Shown here piece by piece: positions 8,182-33,463 of a stretch of 35,934 nt of DNA. Both the position numbers and the translations under genes were made by a program. The notes below the pieces were generated by a model. The model was not told the DNA's origin, did not search any database, and worked only from the letters and a program-made list of their open reading frames with translations. Source of the stretch: Nitrososphaeraceae archaeon (lineage in GTDB: Archaea; Thermoproteota; Nitrososphaeria; Nitrososphaerales; Nitrososphaeraceae). Numbering within the stretch: position 1 is the first letter of the stretch; the number at the start of each line of letters is the position of its first letter. Location of the stretch: positions 1 to 35,934 of the forward strand of contig JALDRC010000014.1 in assembly GCA_031316115.1 (NCBI GenBank). The letters are read 5' to 3'.

Positions 8182-8365
8182 ATTATAGCATACGATTTTC
8201 GTTATTTTTACAATGTTCAAGATCAGTTCAAAAAAGGACCGATTTTTGAAAGGTCTAAAAAAATGTACCTTTTTTTTACCTTTACAATCTATAATATGAC
8301 AGAGAAAAATAGTATAAAAAATAATCCCTTTTTTAAACTATTTGTCTTTTTTTTTTAACATTGAG

Positions 8366-8374
8366 TTATATAAA
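8366..8374 (+). promoter_or_regulatory. TATA box of the serine recombinase
   Basis: TTATATAAA is centred about 26 bases before the ATG at 8396, which predicts transcription starting at or next to that ATG. This leaderless arrangement favours the 8396 start over the longer TTG reading at 8342. Confidence 0.6.
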
Positions 8375-8395
8375 AAATTTTTAATTTTTATAATA

Positions 8396-9046
8396 ATGCA
8401 AAAATATGCAGTAGCCTATCTTCGTGTCAGTACCGAAGAACAGACTGTACAAAACCAGAAAATTTCACTAACAAAATGGGCTCAAGATCATTCTTTTCAA
8501 ATATTGTATTTTTTTGAAGATCCAGCAGTAAGTGGTAAGACTCCCGCCATCCAAAGGAGGGGTTTCCGAGAACTAATGGATTTTGTAAAAACCTCAAATG
8601 TTGATGCTGTATTAGTTTATGAACTTTCAAGAGTAGGAAGAACTTTTTGGGATACACTTGATGCAATCAAGGCAATAGAGGAAAATAGTCCTTTGATATC
8701 TTGTTCTCCAAGAGAATCATTTTTACAGACTACAGATCCAAGTATTAGAAAATTGATGATAAGCATTTTGACTTGGGTTGCTGAAAGAGAAAGAGAAATG
8801 TTGGTACAAAGAACAAAAGATGGAATGAAAAGAGCTAGAATAGCTGGTAAGGAAATAGGGAGACCGGAGAAAATTATCAATAAAGATAATCTCATTAGTC
8901 TTCTATCCAAAAATCTATCTAGAGGAAAGATAGCAAAAGAGCTAGGTATTTCCAAAGCGACCCTTTATAAAGAGTTTAGACGTTTGGATATTCAGTATAA
9001 CATTAGAATAAATGATAGGGAAATAATGTCATCATCAATTCTGTGA
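8396..9046 (+). CDS. Small serine recombinase (resolvase/invertase type) within the biotin locus
   Basis: 216 residues from the ATG at 8396. The catalytic resolvase domain is complete: AYLRVSTEEQ with nucleophile Ser12, the DPAVSGKT and QRRGF region, VLVYELSRVGR with catalytic arginines, and the long dimerisation helix AEREREMLVQRTKDGMKRAR. The end is a short helix-turn-helix (GKIAKELGISKATLYKEFRRL). Such proteins cut and rejoin DNA at short palindromic sites. There is no TnpB partner or visible transposon end. It lies between bioB and bioA on the opposite strand; its 3' end overlaps that of bioA by 12 bases (9035-9046). All key residues look intact, so activity is plausible. A role as DNA-binding regulator of the biotin genes would be speculation. 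Confidence 0.88.
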   Translation: MQKYAVAYLRVSTEEQTVQNQKISLTKWAQDHSFQILYFFEDPAVSGKTPAIQRRGFRELMDFVKTSNVDAVLVYELSRVGRTFWDTLDAIKAIEENSPLISCSPRESFLQTTDPSIRKLMISILTWVAEREREMLVQRTKDGMKRARIAGKEIGRPEKIINKDNLISLLSKNLSRGKIAKELGISKATLYKEFRRLDIQYNIRINDREIMSSSIL

Positions 9047-10465
9047 TTTCTCAATAGTTTTAAGAATTTCATAATTTGTATTCAGTAATATTTCCAGTTT
9101 TTCTTTGGAAATAGCAAGGGGTGGAATCATTGTAATTATATTTCCCAATGATCGTAAAAATACTCCTCTTTTAAGCGATTCTTTCATAATATAATGGTTA
9201 ACAGGAAGGCCTTTCAAAAATAATAATGGTTTTTTCTTGATTTTTGATTCTCCTTTAGGATTATTATTTGGTCTTATTAATTCAATTCCCAACAAAAGAC
9301 CCTTGTGTCTGATCCTATTTACAAAATTAAAATCTGCTAATTCTCTTGTTCTTTTATTAATATATTCACTATTTTTTTGAATCTGTTGGATCAGCTTTCT
9401 TTTTTCATACAATTCAAGATTCGTGAGACATGCAGTACATCCAACAGGATGACCCGTATATGTATGCCCATGAAAAAATTGTTTGTTGTCATCAAACGGG
9501 GCTAAAAAAGCATCGAATACTTCTTTTGTAGCCAATGTAACTGCTATCGGAAAGTAGCCACCATTTAACGCCTTTCCATAACAAACAATGTCTGGCTCAG
9601 AATTCTGTGCTAAATATTCAACCATATTTCCTAAACGACCAAAACCAGTTGCAATTTCGTCCAGTACTAACAAGATATCGTATTTTTTACATAGTTCTGA
9701 CAGTTTTTTTTGATATTTTTTTGGATAAATAGATACGCCCCCTGCAATTTGTGCTCCACTTTCCATAACAAATACGGCTATTTTCTGTGATTCTTTTTGA
9801 AATAAAGATTCTGTTTCTGCAAGACACTTTTCTACTATTTCTGACTCACTCATAAAACAGTCAAGGTTTTTTTCAAATGATGAGGGTGCTGATACTTTCA
9901 TTGTATTTATTAACAAAGACTTGTAGGGATTAAAATAACTGTCCACATATCCCATTGACATTGTAGCAATAGTATCACCATGATATCCATTTTCAAGGGA
10001 AACAATTTTAGTTTTTTTTGTAAATCTTTTATTTTTCCAATATTGAATGGCCATTTTTAGTGCTACCTCCATCGCAGTAGATCCATTATCTGAATAAAAG
10101 ACTTTTGACATCCCTTTAGCCAATTTGACTATTTTTTCTGCAAGTTGTATCGACGGTTTATTTGCTAACCCAAACAGGGTAGAATGAGGGAGTTGTTTAT
10201 ATTGATCACATATAGATTTAATAACTGGATTGGAACTATATCCCCAAACACTACACCACATGTTTGCTATACCATCAAGATATCTGTTATTTTTTTCATC
10301 GATAAGATAAAAATCCGATCCAGAAGTAATTACTTTATTATTTTGGGCATTCCACAGTTGCATTTGAGTATAAGGATGCCATACATATTTTTTATCCTGA
10401 TTGGATAAATCCTTATTATTTTCTAGATTAATAATATTTTTAGTATTCTTATTATTATCTTTCAT
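9035..10465 (-). CDS. bioA: Adenosylmethionine-8-amino-7-oxononanoate aminotransferase
   Basis: 476 residues. PLP enzyme that moves the amino group of S-adenosylmethionine to KAPA, giving 7,8-diaminopelargonate. Class-III aminotransferase landmarks are all visible: WHPYTQM near the start (BioA-specific), MWCSVWGY, FYSDNGSTAMEVALK, NGYHGDTIATMSMG, LVLDEIATGFGRLG with the cofactor Asp, YGKALNGGYFPIAVT with the Schiff-base Lys, and HGHTYTGHPVGC. The N-terminal 25 residues are an Asn/Lys-rich extension. Transcribed from its own promoter, with a palindrome at 10526-10547 related to that of bioB. It converges on the serine recombinase with a 12-base tail overlap. Confidence 0.95.
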   Translation of the reverse strand: MKDNNKNTKNIINLENNKDLSNQDKKYVWHPYTQMQLWNAQNNKVITSGSDFYLIDEKNNRYLDGIANMWCSVWGYSSNPVIKSICDQYKQLPHSTLFGLANKPSIQLAEKIVKLAKGMSKVFYSDNGSTAMEVALKMAIQYWKNKRFTKKTKIVSLENGYHGDTIATMSMGYVDSYFNPYKSLLINTMKVSAPSSFEKNLDCFMSESEIVEKCLAETESLFQKESQKIAVFVMESGAQIAGGVSIYPKKYQKKLSELCKKYDILLVLDEIATGFGRLGNMVEYLAQNSEPDIVCYGKALNGGYFPIAVTLATKEVFDAFLAPFDDNKQFFHGHTYTGHPVGCTACLTNLELYEKRKLIQQIQKNSEYINKRTRELADFNFVNRIRHKGLLLGIELIRPNNNPKGESKIKKKPLLFLKGLPVNHYIMKESLKRGVFLRSLGNIITMIPPLAISKEKLEILLNTNYEILKTIEKSQN

Positions 10466-10833: not shown

Positions 10834-11482
10834 CATACTGGGTTGTTGTATCATATTAATAAATAATTCTTAAAATATACACATATATAAAAATAAATGG
10901 AAAAAATCATAAAATAGAAAAAAATATGCAAAAGATATAAAGAAAGATAGAATCTAAGCATATCAATAAAAGAAAATAAATTAAAAAATTGAGTTTTAGA
11001 AAGGAGATTCTATCTGAATTTTTAACAGAAATAAAAACGAATTATATAAAGATAAAAAAAAGTCGTTTAACTTAAATTAATTTTTTCGAATTAAAAAATA
11101 TTAAAGACATTCAATTATTAATGTTAAATAATCCTTAATTAAAGTTGTTCAAGATCGATAAAAAATATTTTAAAATGTTAATCTAATCACGATCATCTTT
11201 GATGTGTAAGTAAACAATTTATATATAATGAATATATTGTGAGCAAAAATTGCAAGTCTAAGATCAAAATAAATTGTCTAGTTTAATAATTAATAAGAAC
11301 ATATCCATTGCAAGGCTCAAGGAGCTTATAAACGTGGTAATACGTTGTTGTAGGAACTGCTAAAATAGTTTATTTCTATGAATAAATAATCTCTACATAT
11401 TAATAGAACTGCAAATGACGATTTCATAAATCTGTTCTTTACTCATTTTAAATATGAGTTCTGAAAAAATAGAATTAACCAT
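10834..11482. other. Intergenic, one locally GC-richer stretch
   Basis: Mostly A/T-rich with no gene. The segment 11311-11370 (CAAGGCTCAAGGAGCTTATA and following ACGTGGTAATACGT) is clearly richer in G and C than its surroundings and can form small stems, so a short structured RNA is possible but unsupported. Confidence 0.3.
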
Positions 11483-11899
11483 TTGAATCCAAATTCAGAT
11501 ATATTCATTAAATCTGCAAAATTATTGGATTTTTCAATTTTACTGATATTAATATTTATATTAATCGACTTTCTAGCCTACGATTATAAATATATTCATT
11601 TAGAAAAACCAGTAATCCCGATTTCAAATGAAATGAAACATTATTTCGAGTTCTTGCCATGGTTACTTTTTATAGCTCTAGTTTTAGACCTATATTTAAA
11701 ATATTTAATAGTAGGGAAAAATTGGGATAAATTTGTTAAGAAATACTGGTTAGACATATTATTAACCTTACTTATACCACTTATGTATCCCTTAAAAATA
11801 ATAAAGGCCTCAATAAAATCATATAAATTAATAAAAACAACTAAATACAGTTTTAAGATAGTTCAAAAGTTAAAAAAATTTAATTTTTTTAAAAAATAA
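11483..11899 (+). CDS. Small membrane protein resembling an isolated voltage-sensor domain
   Basis: 138 residues. Three hydrophobic helices are visible (about residues 14-35, 56-78 and 88-107), followed by a helix with basic residues at regular intervals, KIIKASIKSYKLIKTTK (Lys at steps of three or four). This is the S1-S4 layout of voltage-gated channels: the second helix ends LVLDLYLKYLIV, the third starts YWLDILLTLLIP, comparable to the ID-LAI-P signature of S3, and the fourth would be the sensor. No pore helices follow before the stop or downstream. The start is uncertain: TTG at 11483, or an upstream ATG (11454, MSSEKIELT) reached only through a one-base shift. Function is unknown; the voltage-sensor reading is an inference from pattern. 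Confidence 0.6.
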   Translation: MNPNSDIFIKSAKLLDFSILLILIFILIDFLAYDYKYIHLEKPVIPISNEMKHYFEFLPWLLFIALVLDLYLKYLIVGKNWDKFVKKYWLDILLTLLIPLMYPLKIIKASIKSYKLIKTTKYSFKIVQKLKKFNFFKK

Positions 11900-12675: not shown

Positions 12676-13605
12676 ATGAAAGTTGGACTAGTAGTTCCTC
12701 AATTTGGGATAAAAGCTACAAAAGAAAATCTGGTTAGATTTGTTCAAAATGCAGAAAAAGAAAGATTCGAATCACTTTGGGTTTATGATCGAATGTTATA
12801 TCCCATCAATCCCCAACAACCATATCCGAACACTCCAGATAAGAAAGAATGGCCTGAATTTTTCAAGAATAATTTAGATGCACTTACTACCCTATCGTTT
12901 GTTGCAGCAAATACTACACGGATAAACCTAGGAACTTGTATTATTGACATGACTTTTCATAACCCTATAACTCTTGCTAAAGAATTTACTACAATTGATC
13001 GTTTGTCTGAAGGAAGAACAATCTGTGGTTTTGGTATTGGATGGTCAAAAGATGAATACCTTGCAGCCAATATTCCTTTTATTAAACGGGGAGAAAGAGC
13101 AAACGAAATTCTGCAAGCTTTAAAAAAGGTATGGACAGAGGATGTTGTGGAATTTGATGGTAATTTTTATAAAATTCCAAAATCAATAATCGAACCAAAA
13201 CCTATTCAAAGACCACATCCTAAGATCTTGTTAGGTGGTTTCTCCACAAAAACGTTTGAGCGTATGACCAAATATGGCAATGGTTATATAGGAGTGTTAT
13301 CGGGTTCGTTTGAGTATTTTCACAATTCGATTAAATTGTTCGATGAATCTATTGAGAAAAGCTCACGATCTAGAGAGGATTTTGATTTAACCATCCTAAC
13401 ATTCCCATATCTAGTAAAAAATAGTTCTGAAAACCAAAAGAATAGATCTCCTATGATTGGTAAAACAATAGATGAAATTGGATCTGATCTATCTGAACTC
13501 AAAATTTCTGGAGTAAATAGAGTAATACTGGGGATAAATGCAGAAAAGGATTATGATGTTAACGAAACGATTGAATTTGCAAAGGAGCTACGGAAATTCT
13601 GTTAG
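12676..13605 (+). CDS. Luciferase-like (LLM) flavin/F420-dependent oxidoreductase
   Basis: 309 residues, complete TIM barrel of the bacterial-luciferase superfamily. Typical segments: MKVGLVVPQFG (first strand), RFESLWVYDRM, LDALTTLSFVAANTTRINLG (strand with cofactor contacts), HNPITLAKEFTTIDRLSEGR (nearly invariant in the family), GFGIGWSKDEYLAAN, RGERANEILQALKKVWTED, and PIQRPHPKILLGG. Archaeal members of this type generally use reduced F420 rather than FMN; ammonia-oxidising archaea make F420, so that is the likely cofactor. The substrate cannot be told. The protein is cytosolic and the gene stands alone behind its own TATA-like box. Confidence 0.9.
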   Translation: MKVGLVVPQFGIKATKENLVRFVQNAEKERFESLWVYDRMLYPINPQQPYPNTPDKKEWPEFFKNNLDALTTLSFVAANTTRINLGTCIIDMTFHNPITLAKEFTTIDRLSEGRTICGFGIGWSKDEYLAANIPFIKRGERANEILQALKKVWTEDVVEFDGNFYKIPKSIIEPKPIQRPHPKILLGGFSTKTFERMTKYGNGYIGVLSGSFEYFHNSIKLFDESIEKSSRSREDFDLTILTFPYLVKNSSENQKNRSPMIGKTIDEIGSDLSELKISGVNRVILGINAEKDYDVNETIEFAKELRKFC

Positions 13606-18124: not shown

Positions 18125-19059
18125 TATTATCCCACCACATGTGTTACACTCCTATTATATACTTGTACTGGTGTCATGTAGTTCAATGACATATGTACTC
18201 TTTTGTTATTATAGTATTTAATAAATTGTTCATGTCTTTTGAATCTAGGTCTTTCTAAATCATATGTACGATGCCATCTCTCTATCTTTCCTAGTGTAGT
18301 AGGTTTTCCTATACCACCCATAATATGTTGTATATCATTTTCCTTGCAGAAAGAATCAAAATCTGATTGCAATGTAGAATGTGAATTATAGAATTGTGAA
18401 CCATGGTCTGTTAGTATCTGTAATGGTTTCCATATTTTCTGATTGTGCGTTTTAAGAGGTAAATAATTTTGTCTGATGTACCTTCTATACATTTTGATAG
18501 ATGATAATACATATCTGTGATCATCGAAAATAGATATCAACCATTTTCCTTCGTTTTCTATAACTTTCAGGTCAATTTGCCATAATTCATTTGGAAATTT
18601 ACGCTCAAATCATATCTGTTCCTTTTATTTCTGGGTTTAGTGATAGGATTGTTGTTTAATCCATTTTCGCATAAAATTCTGTATACTGTCATATGACCGA
18701 CCTTTAGGTTGTATTGATTTATGAAGTTCCCTGTATTTTGTGTGGACAGTAATTGTATTTCTTTCTTAAATTTACTATTTTCTGTTCTATCTTTTTATCT
18801 ATCTTATGGATTGTATGTAGTCTTTAGATCTATCTTTAGTCCATCAATCCCTCTTTTTTGCTCACTGTTCCAGTATCTATAGAAACTCATTCTGGATTGT
18901 GCGTATATGTTTACAGATGTCAGTTACTTTCCATCCTTCGAGTTTACGTCTTATACACCATCTTCTTATCTTTTCTAAATCTCACTATACTGCATCTGGT
19001 GTAACAACACTCCTTACTCTCGCCAAGTAAAAGAGTGTAACCGATGTTATGGGATATGC
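18125..19059 (-). mobile_element. IS481-like insertion sequence relic with terminal inverted repeats
   Basis: The ends are imperfect inverted repeats of 24 bases: 18128-18151 begins TATCCCACCACAT and ends GTTACACTC; the reverse complement of 19033-19056 begins TATCCCATAACAT and ends GTTACACTC. A 19-base direct repeat, AATTATCAGGCTATTGATG, lies just outside both ends (18106-18124 and 19060-19078) and would be an unusually long target duplication. The single transposase gene inside is broken, so the element cannot move by itself. Confidence 0.75.
18127..18996 (-). pseudogene. IS481-like DDE transposase, multiply frameshifted
   Basis: Reading from about 18996 down, three or more frames together give a complete transposase. 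The helix-turn-helix start is LEKIRRWCIRRKLEGWKVTD. It continues after shifts with SFYRYWNSEQKRGIDGLK, then HMTVYRILCENGLNNNPITK, then FPNELWQIDLKVIENEGKW (first catalytic Asp), LTDHGSQF (second Asp) and GKIERWHRTYDLERPRF (Glu), ending with YYNNKRVHMSLNYMTPVQVY. The last 138 codons (18127-18540) are an unbroken frame; frame changes lie near 18610, 18730 and 18890. The catalytic residues are kept but the gene is not translatable as one protein. Confidence 0.85.
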
Positions 19060-30488: not shown

Positions 30489-31209
30489 GGCTCTGTTAAC
30501 TTAAGCAGAAACAGCTATAGCTAAGAACATTCTATTTATCATATGAATCAAATCAAATTTGAAAGAACTAGAACATCTAACTATATTGTAATGTATTCTC
30601 TTTATCTGTACTTTCTTGGTTTGAGTTTGCGGAATACATCTAAAGCATTGACTATATTTAGAGATGATAAAAGAAGTTATGTTTCTGTTTGGAATTGGAT
30701 ACAAAGATTTGGTTCCTCCCGGATCTACAAAAGAAAAAGAGTAACTGCTTTTGTTATAGATGAAACAGTTATTCAGATTGGTAACCAGCATTTTTGGTTA
30801 TGGATTTGTATTGAACCAATTAACTCTTCAGTGCTTGGAATCTATATTTCTGAAGAGAGAAACATGTTTGTGGCAGAGAATTTTATCAGATCATTAGTTT
30901 CAAAATATGGAAAACATACTGTCTATTCAGATGGTGGTACCTGGTATAATCAAGCATGTAACGTAATTGGATTGAAACACTATCTACATTCACCAATTCA
31001 GAAAAGTTTGATGGAAAGAGTAAACCAGTATTTGAAGGACAGAATTGAATCATTTGATGATTACTATCCATGTAGACAGCAGGAATGCAATCTATTTCAT
31101 GTACATAACTGGATACAATTCTTTATCTCTATGTACAATGATACCATAGCAAATAATAATCATTTTGAGTTAGAAAAGGAGGTGAATATTATTTTATCTT
31201 AACAAAGCC
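30489..31209 (+). mobile_element. Intact IS6-family insertion sequence with 8-bp target duplication
   Basis: The element is 721 bases. It starts GGCTCTGTTAA (30489) and ends TTAACAAAGCC (31209): inverted ends of 11 bases with one mismatch, typical of IS6. TATAATTA flanks it on both sides (30481-30488 and 31210-31217), an exact 8-base target duplication as expected for the family. With an unbroken transposase, this is a recent insertion and the only intact IS in the window. Confidence 0.93.
30543..31202 (+). CDS. IS6-family DDE transposase
   Basis: 219 residues. N-terminal part with a helix-turn-helix (SLRNTSKALTIFRDDKRSYV then SVWNWIQRFG), then the catalytic core: FVIDETVIQI (Asp73), VYSDGGTWYNQA (Asp130), and SLMERVNQYLKDRIESF (Glu159), with FHVHNWIQFF at the end. 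It catalyses replicative movement of the element. Two relics of this protein are in the window (25200-25646 and 31463-32120, both on the minus strand). The stop codon lies within the right end of the element. Confidence 0.92.
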   Translation: MNQIKFERTRTSNYIVMYSLYLYFLGLSLRNTSKALTIFRDDKRSYVSVWNWIQRFGSSRIYKRKRVTAFVIDETVIQIGNQHFWLWICIEPINSSVLGIYISEERNMFVAENFIRSLVSKYGKHTVYSDGGTWYNQACNVIGLKHYLHSPIQKSLMERVNQYLKDRIESFDDYYPCRQQECNLFHVHNWIQFFISMYNDTIANNNHFELEKEVNIILS

Positions 31210-32396: not shown

Positions 32397-33463
32397 TACT
32401 AAATAACATTAATCCGTAGACCTTGTGAGATATTTTATAACATCTAGATTAAATCTTCTTGTTTTATAGTAACTAGAAATTGCACCCTTTAAAGAATCAA
32501 ATGTAGGATAATAATAAGAAAGTATGTTGTACTTTCCCTGTCTCCAACATTCCTCTACTGCATTAAATTCTGGGCAACCAACAGGAAGATATTCTAATCT
32601 GATAGCATCCTTGTGATGTGCAAGATATTGTTTTGTTATCTTAGGACAATGAGGTGTTGCTCTATCAACAAACACAATGGATTTACCAAATTGTTTTTAT
32701 ATCTGTTTCAGATAATCAACAAATGTAATACTTTTAAAATTATCATATTGTAAAAATAATTGCTTACCTTCTATAGATAAACAACCAAATACAATAGTCT
32801 TTTTACGACAACCTGTAACTGTAACTATTGGTCTTTTATCTGCAGAAATCCACTTCTTTCGCTTGAAGATATAATCATAAACAAATATTGATTCATCTTG
32901 TACTATTATATTCCAATCATCGTTTTTATTTTTCAGAATATGGTTTACTCTTTTTTGAAACTCTTCTTTTCCTTTGTAGAAACAGTATTAACAAATCTTT
33001 TCTTTGGTACCTTGGATTTGAATCCCCACTTGTGTAACAAACGATGGATATGTACTTCATGATATCTTACTCCAGTTTTGTTGTAGATAAGATCCATCAC
33101 TTGTCTGAAATCCCATCCTGCATTGCTTTCTGCTAGTTCATTTTTTATTTTTAGCATTGTTTCTTTTGGTACATCTGGAGGCCTACCTGTTCTTGGTTGG
33201 TCTTTCAATCCTTCTAATCCATTTTCGTTGTATCGTTTGTACCATTTGTAAGCCCATGCTCTACATCTGTGTAATTCTTTTGCTACATCTTCTATGTGTT
33301 GTTTATCTTGTATTATACGTCTTACAAGTTGTATTCTTTCTTTAATATCTGCATTAGATTCTTGGTTGTAAATCTTATCTAGTTTAGTATAATGACGCAA
33401 TTATGATATGTGTAGGATGCTGGTTAGCTAAAAATGTATCTACGAAGTTTAGTTAGTCAGTAT
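32397..33463 (-). mobile_element. IS630-type insertion sequence relic
   Basis: The ends are imperfect inverted repeats: TACTAAATAACATTAATC (32397 onward, then CGTAGA) against the reverse complement of the right end, TACTGACTAACTAAACTT (from 33463, then CGTAGAT). Each end is flanked by TA (32395-32396 and 33464-33465), the target of the family. The transposase inside is broken. The right end lies inside the 3' end of a ribbon-helix-helix gene. Confidence 0.75.
32409..33400 (-). pseudogene. IS630-type transposase, one frame change and one nonsense codon
   Basis: The N-terminal half (32945-33400, 151 codons) has the homeodomain-like helix-turn-helix region (HIEDVAKELHRCRAWAYKWY), the linker DQPRTGRPPDVP and a winged part (VRYHEVHIHRLLHKWGFKSK). 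In the A-rich stretch just before its stop the reading shifts by one, continuing EEFQKRVNHILKNKNDDWNI, then IVQDESIF (first Asp). That frame meets a TAA near 32700 (DYLKQI stop KQFGKS) and continues VFVDRATPHCP (second Asp) and FNAVEECWRQGKYN (Glu). The first shift could be the programmed one some IS630 elements use; the TAA is plainly a lesion. Confidence 0.85.

Follow-up and report, generated by a model that had tools for sequence, protein, structure and literature searches.

The gene studied here, which lies in a 35,934-nucleotide stretch of DNA from a Nitrososphaeraceae archaeon (the window), encodes a protein that very probably descends from a sensor domain, and its putative kinship to the voltage sensors of ion channels, minus their pore, is well supported by sequence comparison. 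On balance we favour the reading that it is a stand-alone S1–S4 voltage-sensor domain, belonging to a lysine-type branch of an old pore-less family of the Nitrososphaerales and perhaps conducting by itself. The open reading frame (ORF) is real and is a member of a conserved membrane-protein family (~130 aa) of the Nitrososphaerales whose conservation is far above chance. The first-pass annotation of this DNA had proposed a voltage-sensor domain without a pore, and the proposal gains support from a chain of intermediate sequences with controls, from invariant acidic residues in S2 and S3 opposite an S4-like lysine series and from the absence of pores in the relatives examined.

The ORF (11483-11899, plus strand) was reproduced at exactly these coordinates and comprises 138 aa from a TTG start, which is uncertain because an upstream ATG sits in a different frame (Table 1); the doubt that the first-pass annotation had cast on the start was thus justified. 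The gene is solitary in AT-rich DNA, with a class-III aminotransferase gene (9035-10465) on one side and a luciferase-like gene (12676-13605) on the other. By eye, the window has a mobile-element-rich look, with resolvase/transposase-like ORFs and fragments at 8342-9046, 18127-18540, 30543-31202 and 32409-33400. With the window protein as query, matches at E ≤ 0.001 were found in 25 of 70 genomes belonging to its taxonomic family (a count that includes its own genome), and internal stops were seen in three of the 26 places matched in that search. A family profile matched 39 of the 398 genomes in a sample of the phylum, 38 of which share the window's order, the Nitrososphaerales, plus one weak match outside it. 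The distribution is patchy, and members occur in Nitrosocosmicus, Nitrososphaera, Nitrosopumilus and Nitrosarchaeum. The out-of-order match is a 131-aa sensor-like ORF in genome G373 (L122:1215-1610, minus strand; profile E = 7e-4). When an arginine-type relative (L118, see below) was the sole query, the short family was recovered in 55 of 300 genomes of the class. Intact members measure ~129–168 aa from stop to stop, apart from one whose 5' part is open and which reaches 224 aa, and two frames from the L118 search, first taken as 412 and 376 aa, are 133 and 145 aa by this measure. The dN/dS ratio was 0.09–0.24 in the 14 closest usable pairs of relatives (a fifteenth pair, at 0.96, was distant and near-saturated and was set aside), and the short form is therefore kept by selection. 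Single-protein queries gave no matches in genome-contig and viral-contig collections, nor did L118 in plasmids, and none of the NCBIfam models represents the family (two matches, each confined to one member, were taken as chance).

Hydropathy averaged over 42 relatives delineated three hydrophobic stretches (residues ~15–37, 57–77 and 89–104), in agreement with the initial description of three membrane helices followed by a lysine-rich segment. The third helix starts with YWLDILLTLLIP (residues 88–99) and the lysine-rich segment reads KIIKASIKSYKLIKTTK (residues 105–121). Lysines stand at positions 105, 108, 112, 115, 118, 121 and 125, with a spacing of 3,4,3,3,3,4; they do recur every three or four residues, as first described, and the series is therefore not strictly one of every third residue. 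The longest i,i+3 run in the window protein (K112, K115, K118 and K121) has the minimum of four basic residues at every third position that we took to define an S4; when these 30 residues were shuffled 500 times, the longest run averaged 2.0 (p = 0.024). Across the family the mean run is 3.8 versus 2.0 after shuffling (42 of 44 rows measurable), and two relatives (L055 and L002) have six basic residues at threes in S4, versus four in the window protein. Among 42 lysine-type members, the residues at K105, K115, K121, K125 and K132 are always K/R, those at K108 and K118 are basic in 98% and position 56 is acidic in 95%, while both counter-charges expected of a voltage sensor, in S2 and S3, are in place (Table 1). 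The plug position, which precedes the S2 acid by three residues, is occupied by leucine (L66), invariant in 20 aligned lysine-type members, so that this branch does not have the aromatic plug of voltage-sensor domains, whereas the arginine-type relatives have F. Residues 105–138 contain 12 K/R and no D/E, a tail charge that, by the positive-inside rule, would fit a fourth membrane crossing that returns the C-terminus to the inside. The alignment (A5) excludes near-duplicates (L017, L032, L049, L052 and L057) as well as copies that are broken or partial (L019, L020, L022, L026 and L046).

Table 1 Features of the window gene and its predicted protein
Feature	Position	Strand	Basis or remark
Pore-less voltage-sensor-like protein, lysine-type, 138 aa	11483..11899	+	ORF, family, selection on relatives
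Upstream ATG, other frame	11454..11456	+	gene start left ambiguous
S1-like helix, residues 15–37	11525..11593	+	acidic at position 16 in 83% and at position 34 in 69% of 42 members
S2-like helix, residues 57–77; L66, D69, K73 (L..D...K)	11651..11713	+	alignment
D69 codon, S2 counter-charge	11687..11689	+	acidic in 42/42
S3-like segment, residues 89–104; W89, D91, P99	11747..11794	+	alignment
D91 codon, S3 counter-charge	11753..11755	+	acidic in 42/42
S4-like lysine segment, residues 105–121; K105, K108, K112, K115, K118, K121	11795..11845	+	alignment; low-confidence predicted helix
Lysine-rich C-terminal tail, residues 122–138, presumed cytoplasmic	11846..11896	+	sequence; positive-inside rule (inference)

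In the working that we propose, S1–S3 would form a bundle against which S4 would presumably pack, its lysines recrossing the membrane to the cytoplasm, with D69 and D91 as inner counter-charges and the invariant L66 in place of the usual aromatic plug. The membrane potential would then shift S4 and thereby move the lysine-rich tail; for such a voltage-driven movement we put the chances at about even. The output could be a voltage-dependent proton or cation leak by way of the sensor, comparable to that of Hv1 or of the Shaker sensor in isolation, the latter of which conducts with a preference for protons (excerpt of PMC5092046). A self-contained output was judged the most likely because no partner gene is conserved nearby; taken singly, conduction by the sensor is a tentative proposal and regulation of a partner a rather doubtful one. 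A stand-alone sensor might instead pass voltage in trans, without conducting, to a cyclase, an antiporter, a copper enzyme or a K+ channel of the same cell. Some Nitrosopumilaceae copies do adjoin cyclase, Na+/H+ exchanger or NirK-like genes, and the window's own genome also encodes a Kv-type channel (L059:1450-2370) and a 2TM pore protein, but a partner gene conserved family-wide was not found and the window copy is solitary, flanked by the aminotransferase and luciferase-like genes, which makes this the less probable course, at perhaps one chance in four.

The neighbourhoods themselves are varied. In two Nitrosopumilaceae genomes (G165 and G370) the sensor gene is separated by 4 bp from a class III cyclase gene ahead of it, and at two loci (L079 and L080) by 44–47 bp from a preceding dCache-HAMP cyclase gene; cyclase-then-sensor arrangements in the Nitrosopumilaceae span L133:4160-5368, L134:4205-5425 and L079:2056-4246 (all plus strand). 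Elsewhere (G231, L070 and L076) it lies immediately 3' of a multicopper gene that we take to be NirK-like, its Pfam domains being multicopper oxidase and cupredoxin, and this order is seen at L070:4671-6399 and L076:4644-6372 (plus strand) and at L129:5020-6748 (minus strand). The sensor gene of G345 precedes a Na+/H+ exchanger gene by 47 bp, an arrangement (L132:3238-5467, minus strand) reminiscent of the fused SLC9C1, and in G201 and G225 it is divergent from a Ca2+/cation exchanger gene. At L141:5400-5606 (minus strand; no Pfam match) and L072:5804-5989 (plus strand), the start of the sensor gene is directly adjoined by the frame of a conserved small protein with one helix.

The AlphaFold model of the window protein had a pLDDT of 82 overall, of at least 85 in each block of residues 11–100 and of ~60 past residue 100. 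In it S3 continues into S4 as a single helix, and S4 is unpacked against S1–S3. A second model, of the relative L079, was poorer (pLDDT 69), likewise had S4 unpacked and was left out of the fold search. Foldseek against the PDB returned nothing at E ≤ 0.001, its top matches being to a Nav chimera (E = 1.4) and KCNQ2 (E = 1.9). Structural alignment (VIA) placed the sensors of SLC9C1, KCNQ2, Nav, Cav and Ci-VSP over approximately residues 1–105 (Cav to 111) with Z 5.7–8.0, a range to be read beside non-sensor scores of up to Z 8.6 for de novo designs and 6.2 for ferritin/BAG bundles. These model-based alignments agree with the predicted S1–S3 and say little on S4. Because S4 is not packed, the model neither confirms nor refutes the four-helix sensor bundle for which the first-pass annotation had suggested a structure prediction. 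An S4 unpacked in both models, together with the leucine plug, the irregular lysine spacing and the lysines where the other group has arginines, would also suit a degenerate, voltage-blind sensor, with three membrane helices and, lying along the membrane surface, an amphipathic helix rich in lysine that binds lipid or a partner. We consider this improbable, at roughly a one-in-four chance, as counter-charges in S2 and S3 that are acidic in every one of 42 members would be difficult to account for if no charged S4 were paired with them, and as the 12 K/R, if left outside the cell, would violate the positive-inside rule.

Kinship of the window protein to channel S1–S4 emerged through arginine-type relatives. 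A second short protein of the window's own genome (L058:7310-7768, minus strand; 152 aa; the same as L002) has the S4 series RFLKLIRVLKLIKVVK. It is an arginine-type pore-less paralogue (G000, contig C17) lying, by eye, near a patatin-like gene, and no pore was found near it. The arginine-type group consists of this protein and four from other genomes (L118, L144, L145 and L146), all five having F..D...K in S2, W-D in S3 and P + R at the S3–S4 turn. Four of them match Pfam Ion_trans with E values between 1e-5 and 4e-3, along S1–S4 only and under the cut-off (L146: 0.16), the best relative scoring 24.9 bits against a curated cut-off of 25; since the Ion_trans model includes the pore, a pore-less protein cannot earn that part of the score. 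In profile–profile comparison, the lysine-type profile (46 sequences, none of the five arginine-type proteins among them) matched the arginine-type group with 99.6% probability, and this group in turn matched channel S1–S4 of the same order with 96.8% and the own-genome Kv-type channel with 95.2%, while three pore sets gave 0.1–0.4% and 30 column shuffles at most 2.1%. The profile comparison with Ion_trans and voltage sensors suggested in the first-pass annotation was accordingly positive through these intermediates and weaker when made directly, the lysine-type profile reaching only 50% against channel sensors and the window protein having no Ion_trans match in Pfam, let alone one at the curated cut-off. 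Its Pfam matches to Tra1_ring (0.012) and DUF4635 (0.46) were dismissed as chance, as was the sole PDB match of the family profile (a subunit of cytochrome oxidase; E = 0.26). Among PDB sequences, neither the window protein nor L146 had a match, and L002 matched Nav-type channels with E values no better than 0.6. That the protein is an unrelated membrane protein with a chance likeness to S3–S4 would accord with the lack of a significant Foldseek match and of a Pfam match above cut-off, but is very unlikely given the profile chain with its clean controls and the fact that Ion_trans is the commonest Pfam match of the family (E ≤ 0.1 in 10 of 44 members scanned singly, the lowest value being 1e-5; five each for the next two families).

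A K-type pore model, run in six frames over the entire window and 111 other loci, had no match, and a Na-type model run on the same 112 loci, many of which overlap or come from the same genomes, gave one weak match (E = 0.03, minus strand of L076), while four positive controls were found. The S5-P-S6 pore domain of a voltage-gated ion channel is thus lacking at these loci, and the missing pore helices, remarked on from the outset, are missing beside the homologues too. In a tree of 55 rows, for which the tool warned of long branches, the pore-less proteins fell on one side and the channels and a CorA-fused sensor on the other (96/96), with the arginine-type rows basal and the lysine-type rows plus L154/L155 forming a clade (99/97). 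The truncated or decayed channel gene that had been offered as an alternative at first reading can be set aside as highly improbable, its internal stops (3 of 26 places) and the pore-bearing channels of the same genomes notwithstanding, because every intact relative read is short, no pore adjoins the relatives at the 112 loci, the pore-less clade is separate from the same-genome channels and the short family is conserved under purifying selection (dN/dS as above).

As a stand-alone sensor, the window protein shares with channel S1–S4 (the N-terminal half of Ion_trans) the order of helices, an S2 acid followed by K, an S3 acid, a short S3–S4 turn and a basic S4, and the arginine-type relatives add the S2 and S3 motifs given above and R/K at about every third position of S4. 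The family differs from channels in having no S5-pore-S6, and the window branch further in its lysines only, its leucine plug, its S4 spacing and its scores below the Pfam cut-off; the own-genome Kv-type channel, related in its voltage-sensor part, has a pore and lies outside the pore-less clade. The SLC9C1 sperm exchanger sensor (8pd5) aligns with S1–S3 of the model (Z 8.0, 86 residues, rmsd 2.7), but it is fused to its exchanger, whereas the archaeal sensor is separate and has an exchanger gene of the same Pfam family adjacent in one genome seen. TMEM266 is a pore-less sensor domain, a trait that it and the voltage-sensing phosphatases have in common with the window protein, which has no phosphatase domain, its chain ending at residue 138, or other fused domain. 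The sensor domain of these phosphatases is described as pore-less in an excerpt of PMC10377628. Hv1 of eukaryotes is likewise a stand-alone S1–S4 without a pore, and the acid that lines the pathway in its S1 may have a counterpart in the mostly acidic positions 16 and 34 of the family, but the window branch is archaeal, has its acid in S1 close to what is predicted to be the inner end and has neither an arginine S4 nor the S4 tryptophan that the same excerpt gives as a criterion of Hv1 (residues 100–138 contain no tryptophan).

According to the excerpted text of PMC10377628, every prokaryotic voltage sensor known so far carries a pore domain and Hv channels are absent from eubacteria and archaea, the latter statement being repeated in an excerpt of PMC13095418. 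We found no paper on pore-less archaeal sensors in the open-access PMC literature, preprints being outside the scope of the search. A selected-for and widespread family of this kind would correct the reviews' view that prokaryotic sensors carry pores and, if our reading is true, would show that a sensor can exist without a pore in prokaryotes; it would also place channel-free voltage sensing in ammonia-oxidising archaea, organisms abundant both in soils and in the sea. As natural sensors of just 130 aa with lysine as the sole charge, such proteins could serve to probe the interdependence of gating charge, plug and proton conduction. More speculatively, and with the odds well against it, the ancient stand-alone sensors of the Nitrososphaerales might be proton or cation pathways, a counterpart of Hv1 of separate origin with lysine as the gating charge, which in some lineages lies beside genes for respiration and signalling in ammonia oxidisers (a NirK-like enzyme, cyclases or exchangers).

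Sensor domains in other settings were also observed in the course of the survey. At L111:3384-4865 (plus strand) and L112:2343-3869 (minus strand) a voltage-sensor domain and a CorA Mg2+ transporter are fused, each in one ORF, with Pfam matches above the cut-offs throughout (Ion_trans 5e-13 and 7e-12, CorA 5e-27 and 2e-29), and a literature search returned no description of a sensor-CorA fusion. In G511, G502 and G550 the S1–S4 part of Ion_trans lies within frames of 534–552 aa. A Kv-type channel at L116:1778-2582 (plus strand) occupies two overlapping frames, sensor then pore, and represents either a frameshift or a real split.
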